64,000 nucleotides of DNA from Microbacterium hydrocarbonoxydans (lineage in GTDB: Bacteria > Actinomycetota > Actinomycetes > Actinomycetales > Microbacteriaceae): positions 62,001-126,000 of the forward strand of contig NZ_JAMBOY010000001.1 of NCBI RefSeq assembly GCF_023715885.1, in the 5' to 3' direction. Below the pieces are notes generated by a model that saw nothing but the letters and a program-made list of their open reading frames with translations, was not told where the DNA came from and ran no database searches. The position numbers and the translations under genes are program-made. This document shows positions 22,931-57,935 of the stretch, in pieces (position 1 is the first letter of the stretch; every line of letters begins with the position of its first letter).

Positions 22931-23045
22931 GGTCACCTCCTGGTCATAAGGGCTCTTGGGCCCCGATTGGTCGGCCCCGGTTGGGGCCGTGACGCCGATG
23001 CCCGGCGACAGATATCACCTTACGGGTCCGGTGCGGCGCTGCCCA

Positions 23046-23061
23046 TGGGTAGCTCTGCCCA
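23046..23061. promoter_or_regulatory. Palindromic operator candidate upstream of the WXG100 pair (site 1)
   Basis: TGGGTA-GCTC-TGCCCA, or TGGGCA-GAGC-TACCCA on the coding strand, gives arms related by inverted repeat with a four-base spacer. The same TGGGGA-N4-TCCCCA pattern with identical spacing occurs at 31821, 36761 and 57920. It lies 116 bases upstream of the WXG100 start in a 159-base gap after eccC. A regulator binding site is inferred. Confidence 0.5.
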
Positions 23062-23089: not shown

Positions 23090-26000
23090 TCAGACGTGGG
23101 ACGAGGGCGCGTACGCGAGCTGCATCGTCTGCACCCCGCGGTCGCGCGTGATCACCTTCGCCCGTCCCGGCACGGCCGGCGTCGCCTTGACGTTGCCGAT
23201 GAGCGGCCCTTCGTCGGGGCTGCCCGACAGCAGGATGCCGGGGGACGCCAGGTCGCGCAGCGTCTGCATCACGGGTTCGAACGTCGCACGGGACGCACCG
23301 CCGGAGCGGCGCGCGAGGATGAGATGCAGGCCCACGTCGGTCGCCTGCGCGAGCAGCGGCTGCAGGACCGCGATCGGATTCCCCGACTGCGTGTTCACGA
23401 GATCGTAGTCGTCGACCAGCACGTAGACCTCCGCCCCCGACCACCAGGAGCGGTCGCGCAGCTGCTGCGGCGTCACGTCCGGGCCCGGCAGCCGACCGCG
23501 CAGATACTCCGCGAGCCCAGCGAGCTCCTCAGACGCCTGCTGAGCGGTCGTGTAGTACCCCGCGAGGTACTCGTCCGGGATCTCCGAGAGCAGCGCCCGG
23601 CGATAGTCGACGACGAACAGCTGCGCGGTCTTCGGAGTGGTCGTGCGCATGACCTCGCGTGCGAAAGCGCGCAGGAAGCTCGATTTGCCGGACTGGCTGT
23701 CGCCGAACAGGTACAGGTGCGGGTTGCGACGGACATCGAACGCCGTCGGTGCCAGCTCCGCCTCGTCGACGCCCAGGAGGACCTGGTTCTCGAGGGGTGT
23801 GCCGGCGGCGAGCTGCTGCAGTCGCGGCAGTTCGAGCATCTCGGGCAGCAGACGCAGCTTGGGCGCCTGCGGTCCCTTCCACGCCGCGTTCACGCGCGCG
23901 ATCAGGTGCTCCACGCCCTCGCCGAGGGTCTCCGGGTCGCCGGATCCGTCTACGCGAGGCAGGGCCGTCAGCATGTGGTGCTTCGAGGGTGCGAGGCCGC
24001 GCCCGGGTCGTCCGAGCGGCACGTTGGCGGCCACCTTGCGATCGATCTCGGAGTCGGTGGTGTCACCGAGGCGCAGCTCGAGCTTCGACCCGAACGTGTC
24101 GCGGATCGCGGTGCGGAAGTCCATCCAGCGTGTCGTCGTCACGATCAGGTGGACGCCGAAGGTCAGGGCCCGACCGGCGAGCGCCTGGATCGCGAACTCC
24201 ATCTCGTCGAACTCCGCGCGGATCGTCGGCCAGCCGTCGATGACGAGGAACACGTCGCCGTACCCGTCGTCCGCCTGGCCCCGGGCACGCAGGCGCCGGT
24301 AGGTCTCGATGGAGTCGATCGAGTTGGCGGTGAAGTAGCGCTCGCGGGCGTTGACGATGCCCACGACCTCCTGGAACATGCGCCGCAGCACGTCCGGCTG
24401 GTTCCTCCCTGCGACGCCCGCGACGTGCGCCATCTTGGCGAACGGCACGAACGTGCCGCCGCCGAAGTCCATGACGTAGAACTGCACCTCCTGCGGGGTG
24501 TGGGTCAGAGCGATACCGGTGACCACACTGCGTGCGAGCGTGCTCTTGCCGCTGCGCGCACCGCCCACGATGGCGAGGTGCCCGCCTGCGCCCGTCAGGT
24601 TCATGACGAGGCTGTCGCGACGCTGCTCGAGCGGGCGGTCGACGATGCCCAGTGGAATGGTCAGCGGCCCCTGCTGGCGCCAGCGCGGCGAGATCAGACC
24701 GAGCTGCGGATCCTCGACCAGATCGCCGAGCATCTCGTCGAACGTGGGCGGCACATCCAGCGGAGGCAGCCACACCTGGTGAGCCGGCACGCTCCGCCCC
24801 TTCATGAGCGACACGGCGATGTCGAAGGTCACGCGCTTCTCAGGGGCCTCGACGCTCGCCGCACCGAGAGCGAGCTGCGGCTCTTCGGCGTCCTCCTGCA
24901 CCACGACGGGGGCGGCGGTGAAGGAACGGGCCTCGATCGCGCGAACCGGGAGGTCGCTCCCCGGGGCGTCCGCGGCGCCCGGTCTGCGCCGCCGCGTCTT
25001 CGGCGGCGCGGAGACGTACGCCGCGCGGAACTGGGTGAGGGTCTCGGCATCCGACTTCAGGATCCCGTGCCCACCGCCGCCGGGGAGGGTGAAGGCGTCG
25101 GGCACCCCGATCACTGCGCGCGAGTCCGCGCCGGAGAAGGTCTTCAGGCCGATCCGGTAGGACAGGTGCGAGTCGAGACCCCGCAGCTTGCCCTCCTCGA
25201 GTCGCTGCGTCGACAGCAGCAGGTGCACCTGCAACGACCGGCCGAGGCGGCCGATCGCGACGAACAGCTCGGTGAAGTCCGGCTTCGCCGCGAGCAGCTC
25301 GGAGAACTCGTCCGCGACGATGAGCAGCGCCGGCAGGGGCTTGAGATCGGTGCGACCGCCCTTGCGCGCGGTCTCGTAGTCGGTGACGTTCGCGAAGTTG
25401 CCGGCGTCGCGGAGCAGCTCCTGCCGACGCGTCATCTCACCCTGAATGGCATCCTGCATGCGGTCGACGAGCGTGAGGTCATCGCCGAGGTTCGTGATGA
25501 CCGCGGACACGTGCGGCATGTCGGCCATGCCTGCGAACGTCGCTCCACCCTTGAAGTCGATGAGGACGAAGTTGAGCGCCTCGGACGAATGCGTCATCGC
25601 CAGCGACAGCACCAGCGTGCGCAGCACTTCGGACTTCCCCGATCCGGTCGCGCCGATGAGCATGCCGTGCGGGCCCATGCCCTGCTGGGCCGATTCCTTG
25701 AGGTCGAGCACCATCGGCTGACCCGTGGAGGTGAGTCCGATCGGCACCCTCAGTCGGTCCCGAGCAGAGCGCGGCTTCCAGGCCACCTCGGGATCGAAGT
25801 CGCGCACGTCGGGCAGCGCCAGGAGGTCGGTCAGCTCGGCGCTGATCGTGCGGGCGCCTCCCGCATCCTCGTCCTGCGCTGCCTCACCGAGGCCCGTGAG
25901 GCGACGGGCGACGGCCTCCGCCGAAGCGATGCCGAGGAAGTCAGCGGATGCCGCGACCGCGCCGACACCGCGCCGCGCGACCGTCAGCGCCGTGCCCGTC

Positions 26001-27076
26001 TCGCCCTCGAGGATGAGTCGGATCGTCAGCGGATCGGTCAGCTGATCCCACTCCCGAGGGATGTCCAGGACGGTCACGCCGTCGACACCGCCCTCCTCGT
26101 TCAGCAGGTTGCCCGGGGGCAGCTCGACGCCGTCGGTGACCACCAGGACGTGCGGCACGGCTCCGCCACCTCGACCGCTCACCGGGCCGCGAGCGCGGAT
26201 GTCGGCGATCAGGGGCTCGATGTCCGCCCAGGAGGAGCCGATCCGGCGAGCGCCGCCGACGGCATCCGTCCTGCTCTCGGACTGGGCGTGCGGCAGCCAC
26301 TTGACCCACTCCCAGTAGGGCAGGTCGACGCCGGACGCGATGACCGCGACCTGCAGGTCTTCGGGAGCGGCGAAGGTCACCAGCTGCGCGATCATCGCTC
26401 TCGCGAGTCCTCGACCGCGCACGGTGTCGCCGACCAGCTCGATGCGCGCGCAGGTGGCGATGTTCAGGCCGAACGGCAGGTCGGGAACCTGGTCGTGGGT
26501 GAGGACGAAGCGGTGGGCGGCCGAGGCGCTCACCGGGTCGAGCTGGGCGAGCGGCGGGATAGGGGCCTCGTCGAGGGTCATGACGAGCGGCTGCGTCGCC
26601 GTGCCCACTCGCGTGACCAGGAACTGCGGGTCACCGACCGGCCGTTCCCACACGCGGGATCCCTCCTCCACGATGAAGGGCAGCGTGTCGGGGGCCGGCA
26701 GCATCCATTCCTCGTACCGTCGCTGCCGTGACGCCACTTCGCGAACGGCGTCGCGCGTCTCGGCGAGGTAGGCGAGGTACTCGCGACGGGTGTTCTCGAC
26801 ATTCGTGGAGTGCTGCGCCTTCTGCCGCCACATCTGACCGCCCACCATCGACAGCGCCATGAAGAGGAACAGGCCGCCCATGATGTAGGTGCGTGTGGCG
26901 TCGCCGCCCTGAGTCAGCGAGAGCACCGCGACCGACCCCAGACTGCCCACCATCGGCAGCGCCATCATGAGGGTGTTCGAGGCGCCTTCGGGCTTGGGGA
27001 GCTCCGGCGCCTGCTGCAGGGTGAGTTGCCCGCCGGCCGGGGGTTTCGGCGCACGGCGATTGCTGGTGGTGCTCAC
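23090..27076 (-). CDS. eccC: Type VII secretion ATPase EccC (FtsK/SpoIIIE, three ATPase domains)
   Basis: The 1328-residue single-chain EccC has two membrane helices at about residues 35-95 (LMMALPMVGSLGSVAVLSL, YIMGGLFLFMALSMVGGQM). Three P-loops follow: GATGSGKSEVLR near 470, GGARSGKSTLAR near 830 and GDSQSGKSSFLR near 1125. Walker B strands are VLIDFKGG, YVMDFGGG and FVVDYRR. All P-loops keep GKS; the third Walker B lacks a glutamate. It should drive export of the WXG100 pair and recognise substrates through the last domain. GTG at 27076 follows GAGGAGGG; the 27097 start lies across that site. It is divergent from the EccD-like gene by 82 bases. Confidence 0.95.
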   Translation of the reverse strand: MSTTSNRRAPKPPAGGQLTLQQAPELPKPEGASNTLMMALPMVGSLGSVAVLSLTQGGDATRTYIMGGLFLFMALSMVGGQMWRQKAQHSTNVENTRREYLAYLAETRDAVREVASRQRRYEEWMLPAPDTLPFIVEEGSRVWERPVGDPQFLVTRVGTATQPLVMTLDEAPIPPLAQLDPVSASAAHRFVLTHDQVPDLPFGLNIATCARIELVGDTVRGRGLARAMIAQLVTFAAPEDLQVAVIASGVDLPYWEWVKWLPHAQSESRTDAVGGARRIGSSWADIEPLIADIRARGPVSGRGGGAVPHVLVVTDGVELPPGNLLNEEGGVDGVTVLDIPREWDQLTDPLTIRLILEGETGTALTVARRGVGAVAASADFLGIASAEAVARRLTGLGEAAQDEDAGGARTISAELTDLLALPDVRDFDPEVAWKPRSARDRLRVPIGLTSTGQPMVLDLKESAQQGMGPHGMLIGATGSGKSEVLRTLVLSLAMTHSSEALNFVLIDFKGGATFAGMADMPHVSAVITNLGDDLTLVDRMQDAIQGEMTRRQELLRDAGNFANVTDYETARKGGRTDLKPLPALLIVADEFSELLAAKPDFTELFVAIGRLGRSLQVHLLLSTQRLEEGKLRGLDSHLSYRIGLKTFSGADSRAVIGVPDAFTLPGGGGHGILKSDAETLTQFRAAYVSAPPKTRRRRPGAADAPGSDLPVRAIEARSFTAAPVVVQEDAEEPQLALGAASVEAPEKRVTFDIAVSLMKGRSVPAHQVWLPPLDVPPTFDEMLGDLVEDPQLGLISPRWRQQGPLTIPLGIVDRPLEQRRDSLVMNLTGAGGHLAIVGGARSGKSTLARSVVTGIALTHTPQEVQFYVMDFGGGTFVPFAKMAHVAGVAGRNQPDVLRRMFQEVVGIVNARERYFTANSIDSIETYRRLRARGQADDGYGDVFLVIDGWPTIRAEFDEMEFAIQALAGRALTFGVHLIVTTTRWMDFRTAIRDTFGSKLELRLGDTTDSEIDRKVAANVPLGRPGRGLAPSKHHMLTALPRVDGSGDPETLGEGVEHLIARVNAAWKGPQAPKLRLLPEMLELPRLQQLAAGTPLENQVLLGVDEAELAPTAFDVRRNPHLYLFGDSQSGKSSFLRAFAREVMRTTTPKTAQLFVVDYRRALLSEIPDEYLAGYYTTAQQASEELAGLAEYLRGRLPGPDVTPQQLRDRSWWSGAEVYVLVDDYDLVNTQSGNPIAVLQPLLAQATDVGLHLILARRSGGASRATFEPVMQTLRDLASPGILLSGSPDEGPLIGNVKATPAVPGRAKVITRDRGVQTMQLAYAPSSHV

Positions 27077-30034: not shown

Positions 30035-30071
30035 AGAAGCCGCTCACCCGCACGGCGGGTGAGCGGCTTCT
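30035..30071. terminator. Perfect 16-bp hairpin between convergent genes
   Basis: Bases 30035-30050 (AGAAGCCGCTCACCCG) pair exactly with 30056-30071, leaving a five-base CACGG loop. It lies between the RDD/FHA gene and the convergent glycine-rich gene, so it can stop transcription from both sides. No long T-run follows on either strand, common for actinobacterial terminators. Confidence 0.8.
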
Positions 30072-30084
30072 GCGTCTGGACGGG

Positions 30085-31380
30085 TTACCAGCCGAGCTCT
30101 TCGCGTCCCTCTGAGGTCGACCGCCCCGCGGCTCCGGCCGAGCCGATGTCGGGCAGCGCCTCGTCATCGTCCTGCTCGACCTCGAACGCCATCAGATCCT
30201 GTCCACGACGACGCTTGCGCTTCTCCGCACCGCCCGCTCCGCCGGCCATGGCTCCGCCGGCCATGGCGCCACCGCGCCCGCCGGCCGCGGCACCGGACTG
30301 CGCGACGACGCCGGTCGCTCCCGGGCCTCCGGCGGCACCGACACCGCCGACACCTCCTACACCGCCGGCGAGAAGACCCGCGCCACCACTGAGGCGGTTC
30401 GCGAGAGCCGCACCCCCGGCAAGGCCCGCTCCGCCGACGACACCGCCGACACCCGCGCCGACCGAACCCGTGCCGCCACCGGTGACGCCACCGGGGAATG
30501 CACCGCTGCCGCCGGGACCCGCGCCGGGGATCTCACCGCCGATACCGCCGTCGATGCGGGGGTCCTCGTCCCTCGGTCGGGGGAAAGGCGGCTCCTCGAT
30601 GACAGGCGGGTCGACCGGCGGCTCCCGAATGATCGGCGGACGCACGATGTGGTCCTTGCCACCGCCGTCGTCGTCCCGTCCGCCGGTGCCATTGCCGCCG
30701 CCGTCGATCCCCGCACCGCCGTCGACGCCGCCGGTGCCGCCTCCGCCGGCGCCACCACCGCCGTTCACACCGGGGTAATCGATCGGAGCTCGCCCACCGG
30801 GACCGTCGCCGTCCTCGGGCTCGTCGGTCGGCTTGTGCTCGTCGTAGTCGCTCGTCGGCATTCCGTCGATGATCTCCTGCAGACGCTGGTCGAGGGCGTC
30901 GGCGAGCTTCCGCGCTTCCTCCTCCTGGGCCGCGGCCGCCTGATCCAGGTAGTACTGCTGGGCCTGGGCGGGCGTCATCGTCACCCCGGGAGAGACCTGC
31001 ACCGGGCTGTCGGTCTTGGCTGCCATGTCGATCGTGTTCTGCTGCTCCGCCGACAGGCTCCCCGGCGGAAGGCCGTGCGACCCGCTCGCCGTCTGCTGAA
31101 GAGCCTCGTCGGCTTCCGCGATGGCATTGTTGAGGGCCGCCTGATATTCACCGAAGCTGACCAGATCCTTGCGGATCTTGGTGAGGGCCTCGGCGACGGT
31201 CATCCCGAACTTGCCCTCGAAGGCCTCCGTCCTCGCGGCCTTCTGCACGTTCGCTGCCACCGTGTCGACGGCCTCGGTGGCAGCGGCGCGCTGCACGGAC
31301 TGAGTGCTCCGCGTGACCACGACGGCGAAGTCCGCTCGATTGTTCTGCAGACGGTCGAGTCGCTCGACGTTCTTTCCCAT
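30085..31380 (-). CDS. Glycine-rich putative T7SS substrate with helical N-terminal domain
   Basis: In the 431-residue protein, residues 1-190 are helical (MGKNVERLDRLQNNRADF, a long Gln/Ala/Glu-rich coiled stretch ending LQEIIDGMP). Residues 195-400 are almost entirely Gly, Ala and Pro with few strong hydrophobics, and the end is acidic (EQDDDEALPDIGS). There is no signal peptide or membrane helix. A helical domain followed by a low-complexity tail, next to T7SS genes, recalls PPE- or Esp-like substrates, but no known family is recognised. ATG at 31380 lies 11 bases after the preceding gene's stop. Confidence 0.65.
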   Translation of the reverse strand: MGKNVERLDRLQNNRADFAVVVTRSTQSVQRAAATEAVDTVAANVQKAARTEAFEGKFGMTVAEALTKIRKDLVSFGEYQAALNNAIAEADEALQQTASGSHGLPPGSLSAEQQNTIDMAAKTDSPVQVSPGVTMTPAQAQQYYLDQAAAAQEEEARKLADALDQRLQEIIDGMPTSDYDEHKPTDEPEDGDGPGGRAPIDYPGVNGGGGAGGGGTGGVDGGAGIDGGGNGTGGRDDDGGGKDHIVRPPIIREPPVDPPVIEEPPFPRPRDEDPRIDGGIGGEIPGAGPGGSGAFPGGVTGGGTGSVGAGVGGVVGGAGLAGGAALANRLSGGAGLLAGGVGGVGGVGAAGGPGATGVVAQSGAAAGGRGGAMAGGAMAGGAGGAEKRKRRRGQDLMAFEVEQDDDEALPDIGSAGAAGRSTSEGREELGW

Positions 31381-31391
31381 GATCTCTCCCC

Positions 31392-31757
31392 TCAGACCGC
31401 GATCGGCTTGTTCGGCCCGCCCACGGCCTTGTGGAGCAGCGTCTGATACGCGACCTTCTGATCGGCATCGAGCTGATTCGTCTCCTGGATCGCCTTGTCG
31501 AGGTTCACGAAGGCGTCGTTCAGCTCCAGCTGGATCGCGTCGAGCCACTTGAGCGCGGACTGATACCTCTCGCCCAGTGCGGCGACGAGGTCGACCGATT
31601 TGCCGTCTGCGGTCCAGAGGGACGTCGTCTGACCTTCCGAGAGGTGCTCGAGGGTGGAGCGTGACTGCACCAGCACATCCCAAGCCTCTTTGATGAGGTC
31701 GATCTGAGTCTGGGCCGTCTCCTCGTCCATACCGAAGTCTGGAACCATCATGATCAT
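31392..31757 (-). CDS. WXG100-like small helical protein
   Basis: This 121-residue protein is predicted to be two long helices joined at SLWTADGKS, where W-T-A stands in the place of W-x-G. There is no signal peptide. Its size, helical-hairpin layout and position just upstream of the glycine-rich candidate suggest that the two act as a pair in the T7SS. Three ATG codons lie together; 31757 is chosen because GGAGGGGGAG precedes it. A perfect palindrome lies 64 bases upstream. Confidence 0.62.
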   Translation of the reverse strand: MIMMVPDFGMDEETAQTQIDLIKEAWDVLVQSRSTLEHLSEGQTTSLWTADGKSVDLVAALGERYQSALKWLDAIQLELNDAFVNLDKAIQETNQLDADQKVAYQTLLHKAVGGPNKPIAV

Positions 31758-31811
31758 TGCGCTCCCCCTCCGACGATCCTGAGCATCACGATGATAGCCC
31801 GGGTCGTCGCT

Positions 31812-31845
31812 CGTTCTCCATGGGGAGAGCTCCCCATGGAGAACG
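31812..31845. promoter_or_regulatory. Perfect 15-bp inverted repeat containing operator candidate (site 2)
   Basis: Two exact 15-base arms flank a four-base GAGC spacer, the core being TGGGGA-GAGC-TCCCCA at 31821-31836. It lies in the 135-base gap between the DUF2510 gene and the WXG100-like gene, 64 bases upstream of the latter. Sites with the same core occur upstream of three other units. It could instead be a terminator of the upstream operon; the shared core argues for a regulator site. Confidence 0.6.
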
Positions 31846-35956: not shown

Positions 35957-36700
35957 TCAGCGGATGGCGCCCATGCGGCGCATCAGCTCGTTCGGGTTGT
36001 GGGCGATCTTGCGCAGCTGCTCGATCGCGGGAAAACCCTCGTACTTGTTCTCTCGCTCGCGGGCCGACATCGCCATCACGTTGTTCAGCGCTCGCACGAT
36101 CTCCTTCTCGATCACACCGTCATTGGTGTTCCTGACCCAGCGCTCGTCGAGCTTCACCGCGGTGATCGTGTCGCCCTCGCGCGTGACGGTGATGGTCCTG
36201 GCGGAATTCACACCGTCGCGAGGCTCACGAGCACGCTGCGCGCGGTGTGCGAGGAAGTCCGCCTGCTCGGCGTCGGCGGCCGCATACATCTCGCGCAGCC
36301 GCTCGCGTCCTTCGATGCCCCAGGTCGAGCTCGGGTCGCCCAGCTCCACCGGCTCCGGCGCCGCCACCGGCGATGCGCCCTCGTGGTCGGTCGTCTCGGA
36401 GTACGCCTTCAGCCACTGCGCGGCGCGCTGCTCGATGGCGGACTGGTAGCACGCGCTCACGGCGAGACCGAGCGACTCCTCACCGATGGTGTCGCGCCAG
36501 TCCTCGTCGAGGGCGAGCGACTGCACGGCGCCGTTGGCGGCGAGGGTGAGCTCGACTGCGCCCTCCTCGTCCTTCACGCTGATGGGCGCCAGCTGCTCCG
36601 ACGCGTAGGCGAGCGCACGCAGTTCGCGCTGCAGCTCCCCTGCCGTCTGCTGCAGCTCTGCCATCAGACGGTTCGCGTCCGCCATATCCAAGCTGACCAT
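35957..36700 (-). CDS. Tandem YbaB/EbfC-like protein (EspL-type)
   Basis: In this 247-residue protein a helical N-terminus (LMAELQQTAGELQRELRAL) precedes a YbaB/EbfC-type strand unit (VELTLAANGAVQSLALDEDW). A second similar unit appears near residue 170 (ITVTREGDTITAVKLDERW), then a helix with ALNNVMAMSARE. Such folds are known for nucleoid proteins and for the ESX-1 protein EspL, so a cytoplasmic T7SS chaperone or regulator role is more likely here. ATG follows GAAGAGGGAG. An operator candidate lies 61 bases upstream, so this may be the first gene of the group running down to 31893. Confidence 0.72.
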   Translation of the reverse strand: MVSLDMADANRLMAELQQTAGELQRELRALAYASEQLAPISVKDEEGAVELTLAANGAVQSLALDEDWRDTIGEESLGLAVSACYQSAIEQRAAQWLKAYSETTDHEGASPVAAPEPVELGDPSSTWGIEGRERLREMYAAADAEQADFLAHRAQRAREPRDGVNSARTITVTREGDTITAVKLDERWVRNTNDGVIEKEIVRALNNVMAMSARERENKYEGFPAIEQLRKIAHNPNELMRRMGAIR

Positions 36701-36760
36701 GGGCTCCCTCTTCCGTAGACCGTTGACGCAATCCTACGAAGTGCCGTCCGAGGGCCATAG

Positions 36761-36776
36761 GGGGAGAAGTGCCCAT
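36761..36776. promoter_or_regulatory. Palindromic operator candidate (site 3)
   Basis: GGGGGA-GAAG-TGCCCA has the same four-base spacing as sites 1, 2 and 4. It lies 61 bases upstream of the YbaB-like gene, almost the same distance as site 2 from its gene. Two of six arm positions break the symmetry. Confidence 0.45.
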
Positions 36777-36784
36777 CCGTCCCG

Positions 36785-38062
36785 TCAGGCGCGCAGGCGC
36801 CGCGTCCGCCCGCGCGCCAGGAGCAGCACGACGACGGAGATCGTCGCGGCCGCGCCGAATCCCCACCCGACGATCTCCCTCGCCGGGCCGAGCGGGTCGG
36901 CACCGGGTTCGACGGAGACCGTTCTGGGTTCCTCCGGCTTCGGTTCCGGCGCCGCGAACGCCGGCGACGGAGGGCCGGGAAGCGTTCCGTCGTCGACGAG
37001 CGCGAGCGCCTCGGCGGGGCGCACCTCGCCCCACCCGACGGTGTCGGACGCTTCCGACGGAGCGACCCGCATCGCCGACTGCGTGAGGCGGAACGCCCAC
37101 TGGTCGGGCGTCTCGTCGGGGTAGCGCGCTGCGACGAGCGCCGCGGCACCCGAGACGACTGCGGTCGCGTAGCTCGACGACGCGGAGTCGCCGTTGAAGA
37201 CGCAGTCGCCGCCGGAGATGTACGCCGACGGCATGGACTGGCCGGGCGCCGCGATGTCGACGTGCGCTCCGGCATACGACGAGTCAGCGCTCCAGCTGCC
37301 GTCCTTCAGCACCGCTGCGACCGCGAGCGCACCCGCCAGCTCGCCCGGGTAGAAGTTCACGGGGTCCGGGAGGTTGGAATCGGCGGTGTTGCGGTTGCCC
37401 GCACTCGCGATCACCAGCGAGCCGCGCGCATGCGCGTAATTCACGGCATCCGCGTAGAGATCGACGGATCCGTCGTCCGACAGCGAGACGTTGATGATCT
37501 GGGCGCCGTTGTCGGCGGCGAACCGGATGCCGGCCGCGACCGACTGCGCGCTCGGGCCGACGACGTCCCTCGAGGACTGTCCATCCTCCGGCGCTGACTC
37601 GAAGGCGCGCACCGGCATGATCTTCGCGGCCGGTGCGATCCCGACGACGCCGGATCCGTCGACCATCCGCGCTGCGATGATGCCGGCCACCGCGGTTCCG
37701 TGACCGAAGAGATCGTCGTCGGGTCGCGCGGATCCGTCGCCGAACGTGCTGCCGCCCGACACCAGCGCGTCGGCGAAGTGCACGTTGTCCGCGTCGATGC
37801 CCGAGTCCACGACGGCGACGGTCACGCCCTGCCCCCGGCTGAACTCCCAGGCCGCCTCGAGGCCGAGCCGCTCGACGAGATAGCTCGACGACGACACGAA
37901 CGCCCTGTCGTCCGGGGTGCACTGCTGGCGCGCATCCACGACAGGACTCGACGCCGACGCTCCACCTTCCGCGGCAGCGGAGGGTACGGCGAGACCCGCA
38001 GCGCCCAGCAGCGCGGCGCTCCCGAGAGCGGCCGCGACCGTGCGCGCGATGCGCATCCGCAT
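36785..38062 (-). CDS. mycP: Mycosin-type subtilisin protease of the T7SS
   Basis: The 425-residue protein has a signal peptide (residues 1-31, ending SAAAEG). The catalytic aspartate is in VAVVDSGID near 88, the histidine in FGHGTAVAGIIA near 120 and the oxyanion asparagine in SAGNRN. The serine lies in ASSSYATAVVSG near 295; compared with the usual GTSMAxP the glycine, threonine and proline are changed but the serine aligns. A C-terminal helix (about 395-418) and an Arg-rich tail anchor it with the protease outside. Mycosins stabilise the ESX membrane complex. The ATG shares a base with the eccB stop (TGATG), and GGGGGAGGA precedes it. Confidence 0.9.
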   Translation of the reverse strand: MRMRIARTVAAALGSAALLGAAGLAVPSAAAEGGASASSPVVDARQQCTPDDRAFVSSSSYLVERLGLEAAWEFSRGQGVTVAVVDSGIDADNVHFADALVSGGSTFGDGSARPDDDLFGHGTAVAGIIAARMVDGSGVVGIAPAAKIMPVRAFESAPEDGQSSRDVVGPSAQSVAAGIRFAADNGAQIINVSLSDDGSVDLYADAVNYAHARGSLVIASAGNRNTADSNLPDPVNFYPGELAGALAVAAVLKDGSWSADSSYAGAHVDIAAPGQSMPSAYISGGDCVFNGDSASSSYATAVVSGAAALVAARYPDETPDQWAFRLTQSAMRVAPSEASDTVGWGEVRPAEALALVDDGTLPGPPSPAFAAPEPKPEEPRTVSVEPGADPLGPAREIVGWGFGAAATISVVVLLLARGRTRRLRA

Positions 38063-39381
38063 CAGTCCTCCCCCTGCCCCGATGCGGTGGTGCGGGCGAT
38101 CGAACGACTGAGGGTCGGACCCTGCTCGAGCAGCTGCGTCCAGGTGGCAGGAACGGTCACCGACTGCTCGGTGGTGTACCCGAGCAGCGCGAGGTCATCG
38201 GCGGACTCCACCGGGAAGTAGACCCCCGCCTCGGAGACGAAGCCGTAGGTGGAGCCCTGACCGGTCGACCGCGACGTGATCGACGCCCCGGCACCGGGAG
38301 TGACCCGCGTCCCCGGTTCCAGGTCGTCCGGAGCGGCTGCCACCGAGACCACGGGTCCGTCGGCGGTGGGCGTCATCTGCAGGCAGGCTGCGGCCGGATC
38401 CGTCGAGCCGGTCGGCACGTTCTCCGGCCAGTCAGCGGGGATGGCCTCCGAGTTGACGTCGACCAGATCGGTCGCCTCGGCCACGGTCATGACGACGGGA
38501 TCCACGCCGACGTACGCCGTGAACAGCTGGCGCGCGAAAGGCGTGGCCGGCACGAGCCGTCCGTCTCCGTCCACGACGTACTCCGCCACGACGTTCCCGT
38601 CGGACTGCGTCTGCACGACCTGGCCGATCCGGAGGCCGGCGGTGTCGGCATCCTCCCCCAGTTCGCCGCCCAGGTCGACCGCCAGGGGCGAGCCGGGCGA
38701 GACGAGGTTCAGCCACAGCCCCGAGACCGTCGGGACCGACTCCACGTCGTCGATCCCGAGGAAGACGCTGGCCACGACCGCGACGTTGTCGTCGCCGACC
38801 GCGTACCGCCGATCGCCCTGGACGAACCAGTACCGATCGCTGTCGTCGCGCACGAGAGCGCCCTGGTCGGCAGCCCCGATCTCGTCGTCCAGCAGACGGG
38901 TCGAGATCTCGAGAGGGTTCTCGGCGACCACGCAGCTGAGCCAGGGGTCCTCGTACTGGCGATCGGGAGACGGAAGGTAGTCGGGCGCCCCGTCGATGCC
39001 GACCGGCGAGGGATCACGGCTGATGCCGTCGAGCTTGCTCGCAGGTACCGAGGTGATCTTGACCGAGCCGACCAGCAGCCGGGCGCTGGCGAGGTTCTTG
39101 ACCGGGTACAGCGTGCCGTCGAGGGCCACGTAGCGCGATCCCTCTCCCTGAACGACGATGATCGCGCCGTCGCGCCAGTCCTTCGGCAGGCTCCCGGTGA
39201 ACGTGCCGATCAGCAGCGAGACGATGACGGTCAGCACGCCCAGCGCAACGCTCACCACTACGCCTCGCAGCGGCTTTCCCGGAGGCAGTTCGCGTCCACC
39301 GGGGGCGCCGCTGACGAAGGCGCGCTGAAGGCGGCGGCGATTGAAGGCCTGCGCCTGCAGGAGCTCGGATTTGGACGCCAT
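38062..39381 (-). CDS. eccB: Type VII secretion protein EccB
   Basis: The 439-residue protein has the EccB-type cytoplasmic start KSELLQAQAFNRRRLQRAFV, a membrane helix at about residues 40-64 (VVSVALGVLTVIVSLLIGTF), and a long extracellular part with the family motifs IIVVQGEGSRYVALDGTLYPVKN, DGISRDPSP and two early and late cysteines (SCVV, AACLQM) likely to form a disulfide. EccB is a core subunit of the ESX membrane complex. It lies three bases after the eccD stop and overlaps mycP by one base, giving an eccD-eccB-mycP operon. Confidence 0.93.
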   Translation of the reverse strand: MASKSELLQAQAFNRRRLQRAFVSGAPGGRELPPGKPLRGVVVSVALGVLTVIVSLLIGTFTGSLPKDWRDGAIIVVQGEGSRYVALDGTLYPVKNLASARLLVGSVKITSVPASKLDGISRDPSPVGIDGAPDYLPSPDRQYEDPWLSCVVAENPLEISTRLLDDEIGAADQGALVRDDSDRYWFVQGDRRYAVGDDNVAVVASVFLGIDDVESVPTVSGLWLNLVSPGSPLAVDLGGELGEDADTAGLRIGQVVQTQSDGNVVAEYVVDGDGRLVPATPFARQLFTAYVGVDPVVMTVAEATDLVDVNSEAIPADWPENVPTGSTDPAAACLQMTPTADGPVVSVAAAPDDLEPGTRVTPGAGASITSRSTGQGSTYGFVSEAGVYFPVESADDLALLGYTTEQSVTVPATWTQLLEQGPTLSRSIARTTASGQGED

Positions 39382-39384
39382 GGA

Positions 39385-40737
39385 TCAGAACCAGCCGCCC
39401 GCGATGATGGCCAGGGGCAGCAGCAGAGCGATCGTCGCCCACTCGGCGAAGTCGGCGAGACGCGTGAGGCCCAGTCTCGTCCGCGGGTTCAACAGCACCA
39501 CGACGATGATGCAGACGGCTGCGGCGGCGAGGCCGATCACCAGACCCGCGATCCAATCGGGGTGGGTGAGGATGGCGGTGACGACGCCCAGGGCGACGCC
39601 GGAGAGCACGCCGGCGGCGACCGCCACGATGTCATAGCGGGAGTACACCTGACGGGTTCCGAGGAACATGCCGAGGTACGCGACCGTGCACAGCAGCAGA
39701 CCCCAGAAGCCGGAGGCCACCACCGGCACCGTCGCGACCAGGACGATCACGCAGAGCGAGATGCGCAGCGACACCTGATAGCGGTGAGCGCGGCTGTAGA
39801 GCTTCGCGACCTCCTCCGGGGAGATGTGGGAGGGCGCGTCGTACACCTCGGACTCCTCGCGCGCGGAGACGACGCGCAGAGGCACGGATGCGAGCGCCAC
39901 CCACGGCGCACCGAGTCCGGCGATGCCGGCGATCGCCATGGCGGCCGCGAGCGTTCCCGCGACCGGAGCATCGATGAGGGCGACGATGGCCCCGATCACC
40001 AAAAGGGCTCCGCCGACGGCGATCGGGATGACACCGTACTCGCGCAGTGCCCGCAGGGCGAGGAGGGAGACCACTCCGAACACGAGCGTGGCCGCGCCGC
40101 CGATGACCAGAGGCAGACCCCATGCCGGCCCGCCGGGGAGGAACGTGTACCCGGCGACGCCGGCGTACACCGACGACACGAGCGCCAGAGCCATGGTCGC
40201 CTGCGAAGGAGCACCGGTGCGGGCCATCACGAGTGCGCAGATCAGAAGCACCACCGCTGCCGCGCCCGTACCCGCGGCGGTGACGATCGTCCCGCTGCCG
40301 ACCCAGGCCCACACGGCCGGGACGATCGCGAGCAGCAGCAGCACGGCGGCCACCACCGTCGCCGTCGTGACCGAGCTCTGCGTCGACCACCTAGGTGCGT
40401 TCGTCTCGACCGCGTCGGCGACCGCTTCGACCAGATCGTCGTAGCGCTTGGCCAGCGCCGCGGAAGCGCCCTGCTCCAGCACGAGGAAGTCGCCGTCCTG
40501 CACCCCTTGCGCAGCGAGGGTGCGATCACCGTCGAGGGGCGTGCCGTCGGCGTGGACGAGGCGGAAGCCGGAGGACGCGGAGTGGCTGTCGAGCATCCGC
40601 AGGCGGCGTGTGAGCGACGGGAGCACCTCGGCGACCGGCACACCTCCGGGGACGCCGACGTCGATCCGCTCCGACTCCCACTGCACCGAGAGGCGTATCA
40701 GTTGCGATGATGCGACGGCTGTCGTCTGAGGCGACAT
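39385..40737 (-). CDS. eccD: Type VII secretion protein EccD (second paralogue)
   Basis: The 450-residue protein has an N-terminal ubiquitin-like domain (residues 10-90, RLSVQWESERIDVGVPGGV to LVLEQGAS) followed by eleven membrane helices and a cytoplasmic loop near 285-320 (VVSAREESEVYDAPSHISPEE). It is the canonical operon partner of EccB and mycosin here. It differs strongly from the EccD-like protein at 27159, which is next to eccC. The start at 40737 lies 79 bases downstream of the FHA-like gene, so transcription may continue from the fibronectin/kinase cluster. Confidence 0.9.
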   Translation of the reverse strand: MSPQTTAVASSQLIRLSVQWESERIDVGVPGGVPVAEVLPSLTRRLRMLDSHSASSGFRLVHADGTPLDGDRTLAAQGVQDGDFLVLEQGASAALAKRYDDLVEAVADAVETNAPRWSTQSSVTTATVVAAVLLLLAIVPAVWAWVGSGTIVTAAGTGAAAVVLLICALVMARTGAPSQATMALALVSSVYAGVAGYTFLPGGPAWGLPLVIGGAATLVFGVVSLLALRALREYGVIPIAVGGALLVIGAIVALIDAPVAGTLAAAMAIAGIAGLGAPWVALASVPLRVVSAREESEVYDAPSHISPEEVAKLYSRAHRYQVSLRISLCVIVLVATVPVVASGFWGLLLCTVAYLGMFLGTRQVYSRYDIVAVAAGVLSGVALGVVTAILTHPDWIAGLVIGLAAAAVCIIVVVLLNPRTRLGLTRLADFAEWATIALLLPLAIIAGGWF

Positions 40738-40816: not shown

Positions 40817-41566
40817 CTACACCTCGTCGTCGTCTTCCGCATCCCCCTGCGGCGCGTCGAGCAGGGCGAGGTCGTCCTTCGTCACCAGGCGGCTCGACAC
40901 GGCGTACTCGACCAGGCGCGCCTTGCGATTGACGGCGTTCCGCCCCTGCCCTCCGCGCATGCCCTGCACCCCGATGCGGTCGAACTTCTCGCACACGTTG
41001 TCGAGCTTGCGGTTGAAGCGCGTGCTCGTCCACCCGAGTCGCGCAGCGGCCTCGGACGAACTGGGAATCTCACTGATGCCGGCGCCCTCGCGCCGGAGGG
41101 CCGGCTCGGCGAGCGCGAGGATGAGGAGCTTCTGCCGCGAGGTCAGCGGCACGTGCCCGATCGTCGACTGCCCACCGTCCGCACCGCCTGTCGAATCGAT
41201 GCGGAGGGCAGGGCCCTGCGAGTGGATCGTGAACTCGTACGTCGTCGGCCCCGCGGTGAACACCACGGTGGTCATCTCGAAGACGAGCGGCAGCCGCGCG
41301 CCCGGCGCCAGCCAGGCGTTGACGCCGCCGGTGGAGTCGGTCACCGTCGCCGTCAGCCGCGCCCCGATGTTCGAGAGCCACCACAGCCCGTCGATGCGCG
41401 AGATCTCGAGGAAGTGCCGGTGGAGGAAGAGGTTGTCGTCGTCCAGCTCCAGATCGCCCTGACGCCCGACATAGAACGGCTCGTCCGGTTTCGGCGTGAA
41501 GTACTCTCCTGCGAACTCGACCGTGATGTCCATCGATCCCACTTCCCCCCTGATCGGATCGCTCAT
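40817..41566 (-). CDS. FHA-like plus winged-helix protein, copy B
   Basis: In this 249-residue protein a short leader is followed by an FHA-like domain (FYVGRQGDLELDDDNLF, HRHFLEI, LWWLSNIGARLTATV) and a C-terminal helical domain (LTSRQKLLILALAEPAL, AARLGWTSTRFNRKLDN, ARLVEYAVSSRLVTKDDL). It is a paralogue of 32677-33435 over its whole length. ATG at 41566 overlaps the kinase stop as ATGA. Placed directly after the kinase, it may be a target or reader of phosphorylation; DNA binding by the C-terminal part is a guess from its shape. Confidence 0.72.
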   Translation of the reverse strand: MSDPIRGEVGSMDITVEFAGEYFTPKPDEPFYVGRQGDLELDDDNLFLHRHFLEISRIDGLWWLSNIGARLTATVTDSTGGVNAWLAPGARLPLVFEMTTVVFTAGPTTYEFTIHSQGPALRIDSTGGADGGQSTIGHVPLTSRQKLLILALAEPALRREGAGISEIPSSSEAAARLGWTSTRFNRKLDNVCEKFDRIGVQGMRGGQGRNAVNRKARLVEYAVSSRLVTKDDLALLDAPQGDAEDDDEV

Positions 41567-43190
41567 TCGACGCACCCTCGCACCGGCTCCGAGGCCCGAC
41601 CGTCGTCGCGACGCAGCATCACGTCGATGCAGACCGCGCCCGGATCGGCGGCGAACTGCGCGCTGGTCTGATCGGTCTGCTGCGGATCCACCTCTCCCGA
41701 CACCTTGACCACGTTCCAGATGTAGGAGTCGCCCTCGAGAGGATCCGCGTTGGTCCAGGTGAACGAGACCTGATCGCCGTTCCGCGTGCCTGTGAGATCG
41801 CCGACCTTCGGCACGACGTCCGACAGGACGTCCTGCGGGCTCGGGGTGTCCGTCGTCTCCGGCGTCGTCTCGACGCCGGAGACGAACAGGTTCAGGAGCA
41901 CGATCCCCCCGACCACCACGACCGCGGCCGCGGCGGAGAGGACGATCCACAGACCACGGCGACTGCGCGGCTTCCCCGGCGTCTCGACGGGGGATGCCAC
42001 GCCCGGCGCGAAGGCGGGTGCCGGCGACGGGGCGGATGCGGGGGCGTCGGGCGTCACCACCCGGGGCCCTCGCACGATCGTCCGGTCGTCGTCGGCTCCC
42101 GGATCGGGAGCGGATGCCGGCGAGGAGGGAACGCGGATCTGAGTCTGCTCGACTGACGAGGGCGGCGGGGAATCGAAGCGCGGCACGTCGGGGACGGGAA
42201 CGGCTGGACCCTTGCGCTCGGTCGTCGCCGACGGACGGGTGAACGCCGCGACATCCGGATCGATGCTGACGATCTCGCGGACCCTCGTCAGGCCGTCGCC
42301 GTCGTCGTCGAGCTCTTCCGCCGGGGCGTGGTCGTCGACGATGTCGATGGGTGTCACCGAGTGCGACAGCTCGATCTGCACCTTCTGCAGCGCGCGTGCG
42401 AACGCGACCGCACTCGGGAAGCGGTCGTCGGGGTTCTTGGCCATCGCCCGCTCGAGCAGCCGCTGCAGGCTCTCCGGGGAGTCGGGTCGACCGAGCGGCG
42501 GCAGCGCCGCGCGCTCGATGCGCTCGATGAGATCCGCACTCGAGTTGCGTTGGCCGGCCCGCTCGAACGGCGAGCGTCCGGCGAGCAGCGTGTACAGCGT
42601 CGCTCCGAGGGCCCACACATCCGTCCGCGGGCCGCTGCGCGGTGGGTCGGCGAACGACTCCGGCGGCGACCACGGGACCGACATACCGCTGGCCTCGCTG
42701 GTCGCGCCCGTGGTCGAGGCGATGCCGAAGTCGGTGAGAGCCGGCCGGTTGTATTCGGTGACGAGGATGTTCGCGGGCTTGATGTCGCGATGCAGGACAC
42801 CCGCGCGATGCGCGGTCTCCACGGCTCCGGCGACCTGGATGCCGACGCGCAGCGCCTCGGCGACCGAGAACTGCTCCTTGCGCGTGCGCACCTGCAGATT
42901 CGGCCTCGGGCAGTACTCCATGACGAGGTACGGACGCCCGTCGCCCGCGACCCCCGCCTGATAGATGGTGACGATCGCGGGATGGGTCGAGAGCATGGCC
43001 ATGACGTTCGCCTCGTCGGCGAACTCCTGAGCCGCGTTGCTCGACAGCCGGTCGGCGAGCAGGACCTTCACCGCGACGCGACGCCGAGGCATCTGCTGCT
43101 CGTAGAGGAACACGTCGGCGAAGCCGCCGGTCCCGAGGGGCTCGACGTAGGTGAACCCCGGCAGCTGAGGAGGCGGCGAAGGTCGACGAC

Positions 43191-43194
<4 letters not shown>
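41563..43194 (-). CDS. Transmembrane Ser/Thr protein kinase with extracellular beta domain
   Basis: The 543-residue protein has a kinase domain at about residues 14-285: glycine loop LGTGGFADV, lysine in VAVKVLLAD, catalytic [10 protein letters not shown] near 135, DFG near 155 and PWSPPESF in the activation segment. All key residues are present. A disordered Pro/Ala/Thr linker (about 290-410), one membrane helix (about 414-440) and an outside fibronectin-like domain ([17 protein letters not shown]) follow. There are no PASTA repeats, unlike PknB-type sensors. GTG overlaps the FHA gene stop. With PP2C and three FHA proteins in the same gene chain it forms a complete phospho-signalling set. 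Confidence 0.92.
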
Positions 43195-44656
<1,462 letters not shown>

Positions 44657-44657
<1 letters not shown>

Positions 44658-45463
44658 CAGCGAACCCCTCCTGCTGTCTCGCGTGGGCGAGTGTCCATGT
44701 CGATATCGGTCTCGAGCAGAGTGCCGGGGCGCGACGCCACCGATACCGCATCCGCGATGACGACCGTGATGTTGTCGCGCCCGCCGGCCTGGAGCGCCTC
44801 GGCGACGAGGGCCTCGGCGGCCTCTTGAGGATCGCTCGTCGTCAAGAGGATCTCTCGGATCCGCCAGTCGGACAGCTCGGAGGTCAGTCCGTCCGAGCAC
44901 ACGACGATGCGGTCGCCGAGCTCTGCGGGGAACAGCCAATAGTCGGCGTCCCCGGTGCTGCTCGCGCCGATCGCCCTGGTGATGATGTTGCGCCGTCGAT
45001 CGGTCGACGCGTCCTCGGGGGTGAGCTCCCCCGCCTCGATGAGCTCCTGCACGACAGAGTGGTCGACTGTGATCTGCTCGAGTTCGGCGTCGGCGAACCG
45101 GTAGGTGCGCGAGTCGCCGATGTTCACCGCGAGCCAGTACCCCATGCCGTCGACCGAGGCGATCACGACACCGCTCAGCGTGGTTCCCGCACGACCGTTG
45201 CCAGACGTCGACAGGTGCTCGACACCCTCGCGTGCTCGCTCCAGCGCGAAGCGGACGTCGTCCAACGCGAGCGAGGTGCGGCCGATGAACAGCGCGAACT
45301 CGTCGATGACGGTGGCGCTCGCGCGTTCGCCGGCCTCGTGGCCGCCCATGCCGTCGGCGACGACGAACACCGGCGAGCTCGCGAGGTAGGAGTCTTCGTT
45401 CAGGGCCCGACGCAGCCCGGGATGCGTCGCGGAACCGGTGTGGACGACAAGACCCGGCCTCAT
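44657..45463 (-). CDS. PP2C-type protein phosphatase
   Basis: The 268-residue cytoplasmic enzyme carries the metal-binding motifs of the PPM/PP2C family: [47 protein letters not shown] and [10 protein letters not shown], all intact. It should reverse threonine phosphorylation by the kinase encoded two genes downstream. ATG at 45463 overlaps the RDD-FHA stop as ATGA and its own stop overlaps the FHA gene as TGATG. No membrane helix is present. Confidence 0.93.
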
Positions 45464-47043
45464 GCGTATCCGCCCACGGTGACGATGCGGTCGCCGATCT
45501 CGATCGCGTCGCCGAGTCGCACCGGAACCCGCTGGCCCGCCGGGCACGCGAACCGCTGCCCGTCGCGCACGATCGTCATGCCGTTCGTGGAGTGACGGTC
45601 GAGCACCCAGCCGCCGGACGCTTCGGATGCCGCCTCGAAATGCGTCTTCGACAGCGAGAGCGTCTCATCGCGCACCGGAACGAGGACCGCACCGTCCTCG
45701 GGGGCGGGATTGCGGCCGAAGATCGTGCGGCGGGAGACGGGGACCCTGGTGCCGTCGTCCCACGTGAAGATCAGGCGGTGGCCGGGCACGCTGATGCGGG
45801 TCTGCTCGAGCTCGGCCTCCTCGTCGTAGTCGGCGTCGAACGCGGGTGTCGTCGTGGGCTGGCGGGCGTCCGGCCCGGGCCCGGCGGATGTGGAAGCGGC
45901 GGACGAGGGCGCCTCCGGTGCAGACGCGGCGGGCGGAGGCACCGCCGGAGCCGAGACGGGCAGCGCGGGAACGGGCGGCATCGCGGGAACCGGCGGGATC
46001 GACGATGCGAGCGGATCCGCCGGCGCAGAGGGCGTGACGGGGTCAGGCGCGATGGGACCGGATGCGGAGGTGTCGGACGCGGCGGGCTCGGGAGCGCTCG
46101 GGCGCTGGACGATGGTCTCGTCGAGTCCGGGGTCGAGATCGGAGACCGGTTCCGGCGCGGGACTCGGCGGCGTCGGATCGACCCTGGAGGGCGGACCGGG
46201 CTGGGTGACCCCGGGGACGAAGGCGATCAGCGATGACTCCCCGGCCTCGGGCACGGGGGGCTCGAACGGCACCGGCGGCCGGGGCGGCGCCGCGGGAGTG
46301 CCGAACGCGGTCGGAGCAGCAGACGCCGCCGGAGCAGCAGGCGCCGGGGCGGGCGCCGCCGGGGCAGCGGGCGCCGGAGCGGGCGCCGACTCCCCGGGCA
46401 CCGTGAATGCACTCCGCGCGGGCGCGGGGAACGGTTCCGGCGCGGAAGGCGCGGGCGGCGGGGTGAAGCCGCCCGAGGCCTGCGCTGCGGGCAGACCGGG
46501 GATCGCGGGCGCGATCCCGCCGGCGGAACCGTGGAGGGCACCGCCGGCGATCGTGACCTCCGGATCCGTCGTCGTGGGAACGGACGCGGGCGATACCCGG
46601 GCGTCGAGGATGAGCGCGTTCGCGACCTTGTCGTGCCAGCCCTGGAAGCGCCCTGATCCGTCGAACAGCGGCGTGAAGTATCCGACGACGATCCCCGCGG
46701 CCAGACCGAAGATCACGTTGCGCAACAGCGCTCGGCCGAACCCGAGGTTCGAGCCGTCGACCGCCGACACGAGGCGCAGACCCTGAGCCCGCATCCCGAT
46801 CGATCCCTTGCCCGCCTGCATCAGCGTGTAGACGACGAACCAGCCGAGCAACAGGAGCGATACGATCGGGCCGCCGATGAGGAGGGTGGTGAGTCCGGCC
46901 TCGATGCCGCCCGAAAGGCTGACGGCTGCGATGAGCACACCGTAGAGGACCACGGCGATACCGGCGGCGATGGCCGCATCGATGAGGTAGCCGATCGCGC
47001 GGCGGTTGATCGGCGCGATCGGCGCGAACGCGGGCTGCGTCAT
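45460..47043 (-). CDS. RDD membrane domain protein with C-terminal FHA domain
   Basis: In this 527-residue protein, residues 10-150 form an RDD domain with three to four membrane helices ([36 protein letters not shown]). Residues 155-410 are a disordered Ala/Pro linker, and 430-527 an FHA domain ([32 protein letters not shown]). It recalls the RDD/double-FHA protein at 28493, so this gene type is present in both modules. It is coupled to the transglutaminase gene upstream and the phosphatase gene downstream by ATGA overlaps. Confidence 0.88.
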
Positions 47044-49451: not shown

Positions 49452-50710
49452 GCGAGTACCTTCTGCAGCGCGAGGGGGACCTGTTCGAGGGCGCCGATCG
49501 TCACGACGTCGGCCTCGCCGATGCGGCGGAGAGCGGGCGCGGCCACGCTGCGATCGGCGACGACCGCGAGGACCTTGGCGCCGAACGGGAGCCGAGCGCA
49601 CGCGACGCGCAGGTCGTCGGTGTCGACCTTCGAACCGCACACGAGCACCACGACGCTCGCGAGCGGCATGGTGCGCGAGAGCACACCGGCGAGCTGGTCG
49701 ATGCCGCCGTCTCGGGGCTTGGAGTACTCGACGCCCGACAGCGAGTCGAGCAGCTGCTTGCCGGTGCCTGCGGCGAGCTCGCGCCCCTGCACGCGCACGT
49801 CGACGCGCTGCGAGTCGCGGATCGCGCGGAGCCCGATGGATCCGGCGGCCGAGATCGCCAGCTCGAAATCGTCGTCCGTGGCGTAGTCCCCGGCCGAGCG
49901 GGAGAGGCCGATCACGAAGTGCGACCGACGGGTCTCCTCGTACTGGCGGACCATCATCGTGCCGGTGCGGGCGGTCGAGCGCCAGTGCACGTGGCGCAGG
50001 TCGTCGCCGGGCTGGTACTCGAGCAGGGCGTGGAACGAGACGTCGTCGCGCGAGAGATCGGCCGCCGGGAGACCCTCCAGGTCGCGGAGGTAACCCAGCG
50101 ACTGGCCGTCGAAGAGCACGGTGCGCGGGTGCACGTACAGATCGACGGGCTCGTCGCGACGGTGCGCGCGCTCGAACAGGCCGAGCGGATCGCCGCGCAC
50201 CACGCTGACGGGGCCGACCTTCACGACCGCGCGCTTCTGCGTCGGGATCGCGAACAGCTCCTCCGCCTCCTCGCCGGGAGCGAGTCGCTGGATGCTGAAC
50301 TCGCCGCGACCCGATCCGACGGGCAGCACGACCCGGGAGGGCAGGATCGCCCTGGCGCCGCGGTTCGCAAGGGTGAGGGCGCCCACTGCTCGCTCCCCGA
50401 CGACGACGCGGGTGCGCGCGAGGTCGAGTGAGACGTCGTAGGCGGTGCGACCGATGAGGAACAGCGCGCACAGTCCGACAGTGATGGCGATCACTACGGC
50501 GGCGACCGTGAACTCGGCCCACCCCGCGATCTGACCGACGATCCAGAACCCGACCGCGAGCGCCATCAGCACCCACGCCAGCGGACGGATCGCGCCGGCG
50601 ACGAGGCGGAGGCGACTCAGGATGCGCGCGCCGATGACCGCCGCGACGTCGCGCCAGCCGGCGTCTCGGTCGGTCGGCGCGGTCGCAGCCGGGAGTGCCT
50701 CCGTCGTCAT
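49448..50710 (-). CDS. DUF58 membrane protein
   Basis: The 420-residue protein has two membrane helices at about residues 43-90 (LAWVLMALAVGFWIVGQIA, FTVAAVVIAITVGLCALFLI). An extracytoplasmic beta region (LTLANRGARAILPSRVVLP) and the DUF58 core LLEYQPGDDLRHVHWRSTAR near residue 225 follow, then a von Willebrand-A-like fold. DUF58 proteins pair with MoxR ATPases. The ATG shares a base with the MoxR stop (TGATG). A much longer open frame upstream is a shadow of the giant gene and is rejected. Confidence 0.9.
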   Translation of the reverse strand: MTTEALPAATAPTDRDAGWRDVAAVIGARILSRLRLVAGAIRPLAWVLMALAVGFWIVGQIAGWAEFTVAAVVIAITVGLCALFLIGRTAYDVSLDLARTRVVVGERAVGALTLANRGARAILPSRVVLPVGSGRGEFSIQRLAPGEEAEELFAIPTQKRAVVKVGPVSVVRGDPLGLFERAHRRDEPVDLYVHPRTVLFDGQSLGYLRDLEGLPAADLSRDDVSFHALLEYQPGDDLRHVHWRSTARTGTMMVRQYEETRRSHFVIGLSRSAGDYATDDDFELAISAAGSIGLRAIRDSQRVDVRVQGRELAAGTGKQLLDSLSGVEYSKPRDGGIDQLAGVLSRTMPLASVVVLVCGSKVDTDDLRVACARLPFGAKVLAVVADRSVAAPALRRIGEADVVTIGALEQVPLALQKVLA

Positions 50711-57815: not shown

Positions 57816-57919
57816 ACCCGGTTCCCCCCAGGGTCTCGCTGAACAAGACTCTCCCTATCGCGCACCTGGCCGGGCACGATACACCCGATCATCCTAACCG
57901 GCCGGAATACCGCGCACGA

Positions 57920-57935
57920 TGGGGAGAATTGTCCA
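57920..57935. promoter_or_regulatory. Palindromic operator candidate (site 4)
   Basis: TGGGGA-GAAT-TGTCCA has the same four-base spacing as sites 1-3. It lies 105 bases upstream of the giant fibronectin-III gene in the 140-base gap after the glycosylase gene. The left arm is exact to the consensus, the right arm differs at two positions. Confidence 0.5.

Follow-up and report, generated by a model that had tools for sequence, protein, structure and literature searches.

What does a short palindrome of G- and C-runs do upstream of type VII secretion system (T7SS) genes, and does it join them into one regulon? The question is raised by the stretch of DNA analyzed here (the window; 64,000 nucleotides), which holds an actinobacterial type VII (ESX) cluster, with EccC, EccB, EccD, and WXG100 proteins that all exceed their NCBIfam cut-offs. 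On the reverse strand, which carries all of the genes listed here, the EccC secretion ATPase (EccCa/EccCb; 23090-27076) is accompanied by a WXG100 protein (TIGR03930; 22619-22930), and EccD (39385-40737), EccB (38062-39381), and a mycosin-like subtilase (36785-38062) together span 36785-40737; the last of these is a subtilase by Pfam and scores below the cut-off of the mycosin model (237.9 vs. 278.75 bits). The same strand encodes a YbaB/EbfC-like protein (35957-36700), a Ser/Thr protein kinase (41563-43194), a PP2C-type phosphatase (44657-45547), a MoxR AAA ATPase (50710-51681), and a 2024-residue protein containing Big_9, cadherin-like, and fn3 domains (51741-57815). A 121-residue protein (31392-31757), whose orthologues occur in five relatives that share the cluster, had been labeled WXG100-like, but it has no Pfam or NCBIfam match, and used alone as a query against 27 other genomes it retrieved no relative, the five cluster-bearing relatives not being part of that set. 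Activation of T7SS genes in non-mycobacterial actinobacteria appears to be little studied, with no paper found in the open-licence literature, and searches of the same literature for the motif itself and for T7SS with Microbacterium, Micrococcales, or flagella returned no published description of the motif or regulon.

An earlier note on this DNA had placed the pattern TGGGGA-N4-TCCCCA at four sites, all read on the reverse strand. The site at 31821-31836, upstream of the gene starting at 31757, is exact and is the single exact copy in the whole window, but the other three carry two mismatches each: TGGGTAGCTCTGCCCA (gene strand TGGGCAGAGCTACCCA) at 23046-23061, between eccC and the WXG100 gene; GGGGGAGAAGTGCCCA (gene strand TGGGCACTTCTCCCCC) at 36760-36775, previously given one base off as 36761-36776, upstream of the YbaB-like gene; and TGGGGAGAATTGTCCA (gene strand TGGACAATTCTCCCCA) at 57920-57935, upstream of the giant fn3/Ig protein. 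By coordinates, the gaps from site to start codon are 115 nt (22930), 63 nt (31757), 59 nt (36700), and 104 nt (57815). A relaxed pattern, TGGGNA-N4-TNCCCA, is fitted by two of the four. Two further sites within two mismatches, at 19427 (one mismatch) and 62842, had gone unclaimed, and the resulting six sites compare with 2.25 expected; because one of 100 shuffles also reaches six, the four-site claim is weak on the window's sequence alone. The exact site lies inside a perfect inverted repeat, as had been noted, with arms that measure 16 rather than 15 bases around a two-base centre (31812-31845). When perfect repeats whose centre has at most 12 bases are compared, it ranks second in the window, after the one at 30035-30071 (17-base arms, three-base centre), which sits just beyond the 3' end of a reverse-strand open reading frame at 30085-31683 and is terminator-like in appearance. 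Another perfect inverted repeat, with 15-base arms, lies within the Ser/Thr kinase gene (41853-41885).

Comparison with a reversed control shows that the motif is more common than expected at random. In the whole genome from which the window comes, the exact pattern occurs four times against none for the control, the relaxed pattern six times against one, and matches within two mismatches 106 times against 67. Across 99 genomes of the same genus, Microbacterium, there are 147 exact sites against eight in the control, with a site present in 53 genomes and absent from 46, and across 249 genomes of the family there are 222 against 16, distributed over 97 genomes and 44 of 85 genera. Genomes outside the order in a sample of the class show little excess (36 vs. 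22, with ten of the 36 from two genomes). Since one relative, G053, has no exact site yet carries degenerate ones, these exact-pattern counts are lower bounds; in another EccB-positive genome, G007, one of the few in which degenerate sites were sought, none was found within the stretch read. EccB was rejected as a marker of the regulon, an exact site being present in eight of 25 EccB-positive genomes of the genus (17 lack one) vs. 45 of 74 EccB-negative ones. The EccB scores in the genus form two groups, a lower one of seven that includes the window type and another of 18 that is mostly site-free, with an exact site in three.

The sites are also kept at orthologous promoters, so that the shared-regulon idea passes both of the checks that the earlier note had set for it: all four window promoters retain a site in relatives. 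Five relatives with the window's cluster (G044, G103, G037, G094, and G053) were chosen by EccB matches scoring near that of the window's own genome, the broken EccB gene of G053 scoring lower; G090, in the same score band, has a different cluster. At the 31757-type promoter the site is found in all five (four exact, one with a single mismatch), always with a −10-like TANNNT starting 23 or 24 nt after it. The gap between eccC and the WXG100 gene starting at 22930 contains the relaxed pattern in all five as well, again with TANNNT at 23 or 24 in every case. At the YbaB promoter (36700), four of the five have a site within two mismatches and TANNNT at 23, and by alignment the fifth, G037, has three mismatches. 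The fn3 promoter has a site within one mismatch of the relaxed pattern in all three of the starts fetched, with the −10 at offset 23 in G094 and at 34, about one turn apart, in G044 and G053; the G103 gene extends past its contig end and is absent from this comparison, and the G037 stretch examined gave no fn3 match. The long arms of the 31812-31845 repeat are lost in most orthologues, and the core alone is kept.

What sets the four sites apart from chance matches is their distance from a putative −10 element. On the gene strand, TANNNT begins 23 or 24 nt after each of the four claimed sites, namely TATCAT (31791-31796) 24 nt after the 31821 palindrome, TAAGGT (23017-23022) 23 nt after the 23046 site, and TAGGAT 23 nt after both the 36760 site (36731-36736) and the 57920 site (57891-57896), and after neither of the two unclaimed ones. 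At the frequency with which TANNNT occurs in the four intergenic regions, at least four of six sites would be so spaced by chance with a probability of about 2e-6, a post hoc figure; the offset was first noticed on these four sites, and the independent test lies in other genomes. All exact sites in loci L001-L266 with 90 nt on both sides were collected and repeats dropped. Of the resulting 170, 69 have a TANNNT that begins at offset 23 and 47 one that begins at offset 24, vs. a mean of 0.48 for other offsets. At least one side has it at 23 or 24 in 115 sites, and neither side in 55, a count in which sites from related species are not independent. A separate count of 165 sites, taken on sides with a called gene, gave 60 and 38 for the two offsets. 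There is a minor second peak one helical turn off (offset 33 in six and 34 in two of the 170), eight matches against about one expected, which are small numbers. In two genomes a second, unlinked MoxR gene (C11:497718 of the window's own genome, locus L002; also L030) is preceded by an exact site whose TANNNT lies at offset 33, one helical turn beyond the usual position.

Oriented by their promoters, the 69 offset-23 sites give the consensus A TGGGGA G T T C TCCCCA T c G, and directly behind the palindrome they show a TYGMCR-like −35 of low information; in the four window promoters the −35 hexamers are non-consensus and unlike one another (TGGGCA, TGGAGA, TATGGC, and TCGTGC). If the −10 occupies −12 to −7, the palindrome would be centred near −43.5, which is the position of a class II activator. 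In class II promoters, such as those of Crp or of lambda cI at PRM, a palindrome centred near −42 accompanies a poor −35, with fixed spacing and dependence on the face of the helix. The present promoters share with them a palindromic site at a fixed distance upstream of the −35/−10 and an adjoining weak −35, and differ in that the centre is derived here from the −10 rather than from a mapped start.

The genes behind the sites were sampled by taking one tool-returned locus per genome from the genus and family scans, with the window's own genome excluded. The 23/24 spacing is present in 35 of these 59 loci and absent from 24, and 33 of the 35 have a called gene behind the site. Most of these 33 proteins are secretion proteins of the WXG100 type, 21 of them having a WXG100 match (Pfam, E up to 0.01); further matches are to WXG100_2 (six), LXG (two), EspC (two), T7SS_signal (one), PP2C (one), and a calpain-type peptidase (one), in a tally where one protein may match several families and coiled-coil families such as BLOC1_2 are also listed. 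Two proteins of G244 behind well-spaced sites, WXG/LXG-like by eye, have no Pfam match. Other sites precede giant fn3 proteins, the second MoxR gene (L002, L030), DUF2510-like proteins, lipoproteins, and AIM24-like proteins, assigned by Pfam for the L002 MoxR and by eye for the rest. In G086, G002, G186, G135, and G040, genes for giant fn3, MoxR, membrane, PP2C-type, kinase, FHA-type, and EccC proteins form one run, as read from gene start sequences with not all members called in every stretch, and in relatives read further the site and a WXG100 gene come after it. The regulon shared by secretion and surface/phospho-signalling genes that the earlier note had proposed is supported, but its description as linking two modules is overstated, because the fn3, MoxR, kinase, and phosphatase genes share one cluster with the secretion ATPase in relatives.

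These results point to something real, namely a type VII secretion regulon with a promoter architecture found family-wide, which would be activator-type by its geometry. We consider it highly probable, judging from the sequence comparisons, that a single dimeric transcription activator binds the palindrome and controls the T7SS and the fn3/MoxR/kinase/phosphatase genes. The activator dimer would occupy the predicted site, with the extended consensus rATGGGGA-GTTC-TCCCCATcG and the half-site TGGGNA; centred near −43.5, in the class II position, it would recruit sigma-A RNA polymerase, presumably by contacting sigma region 4. Where the earlier note suggested an undescribed operator, the fixed spacing to the −10 indicates an activator site. 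Such a promoter could be read from sequence in many genera and would point, in each genome, to the genes and substrates likely to belong to the T7SS, among them WXG/LXG genes distant from the core cluster.

A repressor operator that blocks the −35 region would also adjoin it, as the site does, and palindromes are typical of repressors. A repressor, however, does not require a distance that is constant to within 1 bp, nor a second set of sites shifted by 10 bp, and the weak, varied −35 hexamers of the four window promoters suggest dependence on an activator, so that we regard this explanation as unlikely. That four unrelated, degenerate matches were simply grouped together is suggested by the window itself, where six sites at two mismatches stand against 2.25 expected and three of the four claimed are degenerate; the enrichment, the spacing, and the conservation at all four orthologous promoters leave chance with next to no probability.

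The inverted repeats might instead belong to the preceding gene, either as its transcription terminators or as hairpins in its RNA. The 31812-31845 repeat would indeed be very stable as RNA (−74.6 kcal/mol for a 123-nt stretch, z −6.87), and one site in Jonesia (L418, at 1507) reads GTGGGGAC-TG-GTCCCCAC between A- and T-runs; it matches the motif, is terminator-like, and is accepted as a terminator. Yet the long arms are mostly lost in orthologues while the core is kept, the upstream gene has its own separate GC hairpin after it, no Rfam match was found in 22500-58200, and the constant distance to a −10 would be left unexplained. For the 31821 site an intrinsic terminator was rejected, since there is no T-run and the arms are not conserved, and as a general explanation this one is very improbable. 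A further alternative concerns the binder. Crp/Fnr sites are 16-bp palindromes, TGTGA-N6-TCACA, of the same layout, so that length and class II position would both suit a protein of that family, and a Crp-HTH match exceeds the cut-off in 32 of 41 searched genomes, with a true Crp carrying a cyclic-nucleotide domain in Agreia (G186). Against this, the best match reaches about 1e-12 or better in six of the 41 only and is weak in the rest, the match in the window's own genome lacks a cyclic-nucleotide domain, and G001 has no match over the cut-off, yet carries an exact site ahead of a WXG100 gene (L060; 23/24 spacing absent there). Since a Crp is not evident in every site-positive genome, in contrast to Crp class II promoters, a Crp/Fnr-family binder is hardly credible.

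The 23/24 spacing is not confined to the family and recurs in other Micrococcales families. With ATGGGGASWWSTCCCCAT as the pattern, a scan of named genomes matched at least 116 stretches, and among the matches listed TANNNT lies at 23 or 24 in 67 of 116 (66 of 104 actinobacterial, one of 12 from other phyla). Among the first 80 of the matches listed, once other phyla are set aside, 22 of 35 loci from Microbacteriaceae and 19 of 36 from other actinobacteria have the spacing; the 19 belong to Brachybacterium, Micrococcaceae (Psychromicrobium and others), Bifidobacteriaceae and Propionibacteriaceae bins, and Gordonia. Fourteen such genomes, selected for having a match, hold 90 exact sites vs. none for the control, and TANNNT lies at 22-24 in 18 of 36 distinct sites read from these fourteen, some of the sites being in the earlier count. 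WXG100 matches were obtained for the genes behind L392, L411 (these two below the Pfam cut-off), and L393, and a PP2C match for the one behind L414. In another family of the class, a 23-kb stretch (G423:C7 1737-24243; L435) has four TGGGGA-N4-TCCCCA sites with the centre ATTT or AAAT, one of them near the start of a PE-like protein (by eye), and the single site read there lacks a TANNNT within 20-35 nt.

Some sites lie near flagellar genes. Those next to flgN come from three Microbacterium genomes (L003, L059, L303) and one other genus (L245), those next to fliA from Sanguibacter (L317) and from Jonesia (L313, where flgN is on the opposite side), and those next to flgB from Georgenia (L282) and Jonesia (L418, the site accepted above as a terminator). 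Pfam recognizes FlgN at L003 and L313 and rod-protein domains at L397 (the L282 gene) and L418; it also recognizes sigma-70 regions in the L317 and L313 genes, which are named fliA by context. Because TANNNT is missing from offsets 23 and 24 at all eight of these sites, the flagellar link is weak and serves as a lead only.

As to the activator itself, our leading guess, held tentatively and by analogy, is a NarL/LuxR-type response regulator that would act as DegU does in the T7SS of Bacillus subtilis, since that system needs DegU, itself a NarL/LuxR-type response regulator, and G-run/C-run-like palindromes of this sort suit that fold. The mycobacterial DosR/DevR site, TTSGGGACTWWAGTCCCSAA, is likewise a G-run/C-run palindrome and is bound by a NarL-type regulator, but its half-site and spacing are unlike those found here. 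The motifs of RamA, a LuxR-type regulator of Corynebacterium glutamicum, include runs such as A/T/C-GGGG-N and A/T/C-CCCC-N, which resemble the palindrome but are, in the portion of the source available, separate runs rather than one palindrome (PMC4847777). According to the available part of a further source, the B. subtilis Yuk/Ess T7SS has a SigA promoter and needs the response regulator DegU of the DegS-DegU system, whose processes include cell motility (PMC3701619). On that partial account, the two cases share a T7SS under one regulator with a sigma-A-type promoter, predicted in ours; they differ in phylum, and here the palindrome precedes many WXG100 units. It is conceivable, if doubtful, that one undescribed master activator, conserved across Micrococcales, coordinates T7SS with its fn3/MoxR/kinase/phosphatase surface module and also with the flagellar genes of motile members, as an actinobacterial counterpart of DegU.

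No regulator gene was evident in the clusters themselves (17 stretches from ten genomes, start sequences judged by eye), regulator-like genes being found in outer flanks only (ArsR-like in L191, ROK-like in L194). Nor does any regulator family recur among the genes listed behind sites, as autoregulation might produce; single regulator-like genes there are, by eye, LysR-like (L023), MerR-like (L238), and GntR-like (L415), and an OmpR-type response regulator found by Pfam at L230 has no well-spaced −10. A RamA-like LuxR gene of the window's own genome (L187, C21 near 411520; resemblance by eye) is flanked, also by eye, by an lsr2-like gene on one side and a DUF485/acetate-type transporter-like pair on the other. 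Its product is not supported as the binder by a comparison with one genome, G244, where six of eight sites have the 23/24 spacing, yet the GerE proteins match L187 over 66-78 residues only and include no full-length relative. NarL-type candidates in G000 and G244, L177 and L174, are 65% identical. DNA carrying the palindrome would offer a bait for direct retrieval of the regulator. In G202, an ECF-sigma-like gene (L119, 1077-2030; by eye) lies just upstream of a site that precedes a giant fn3 gene.
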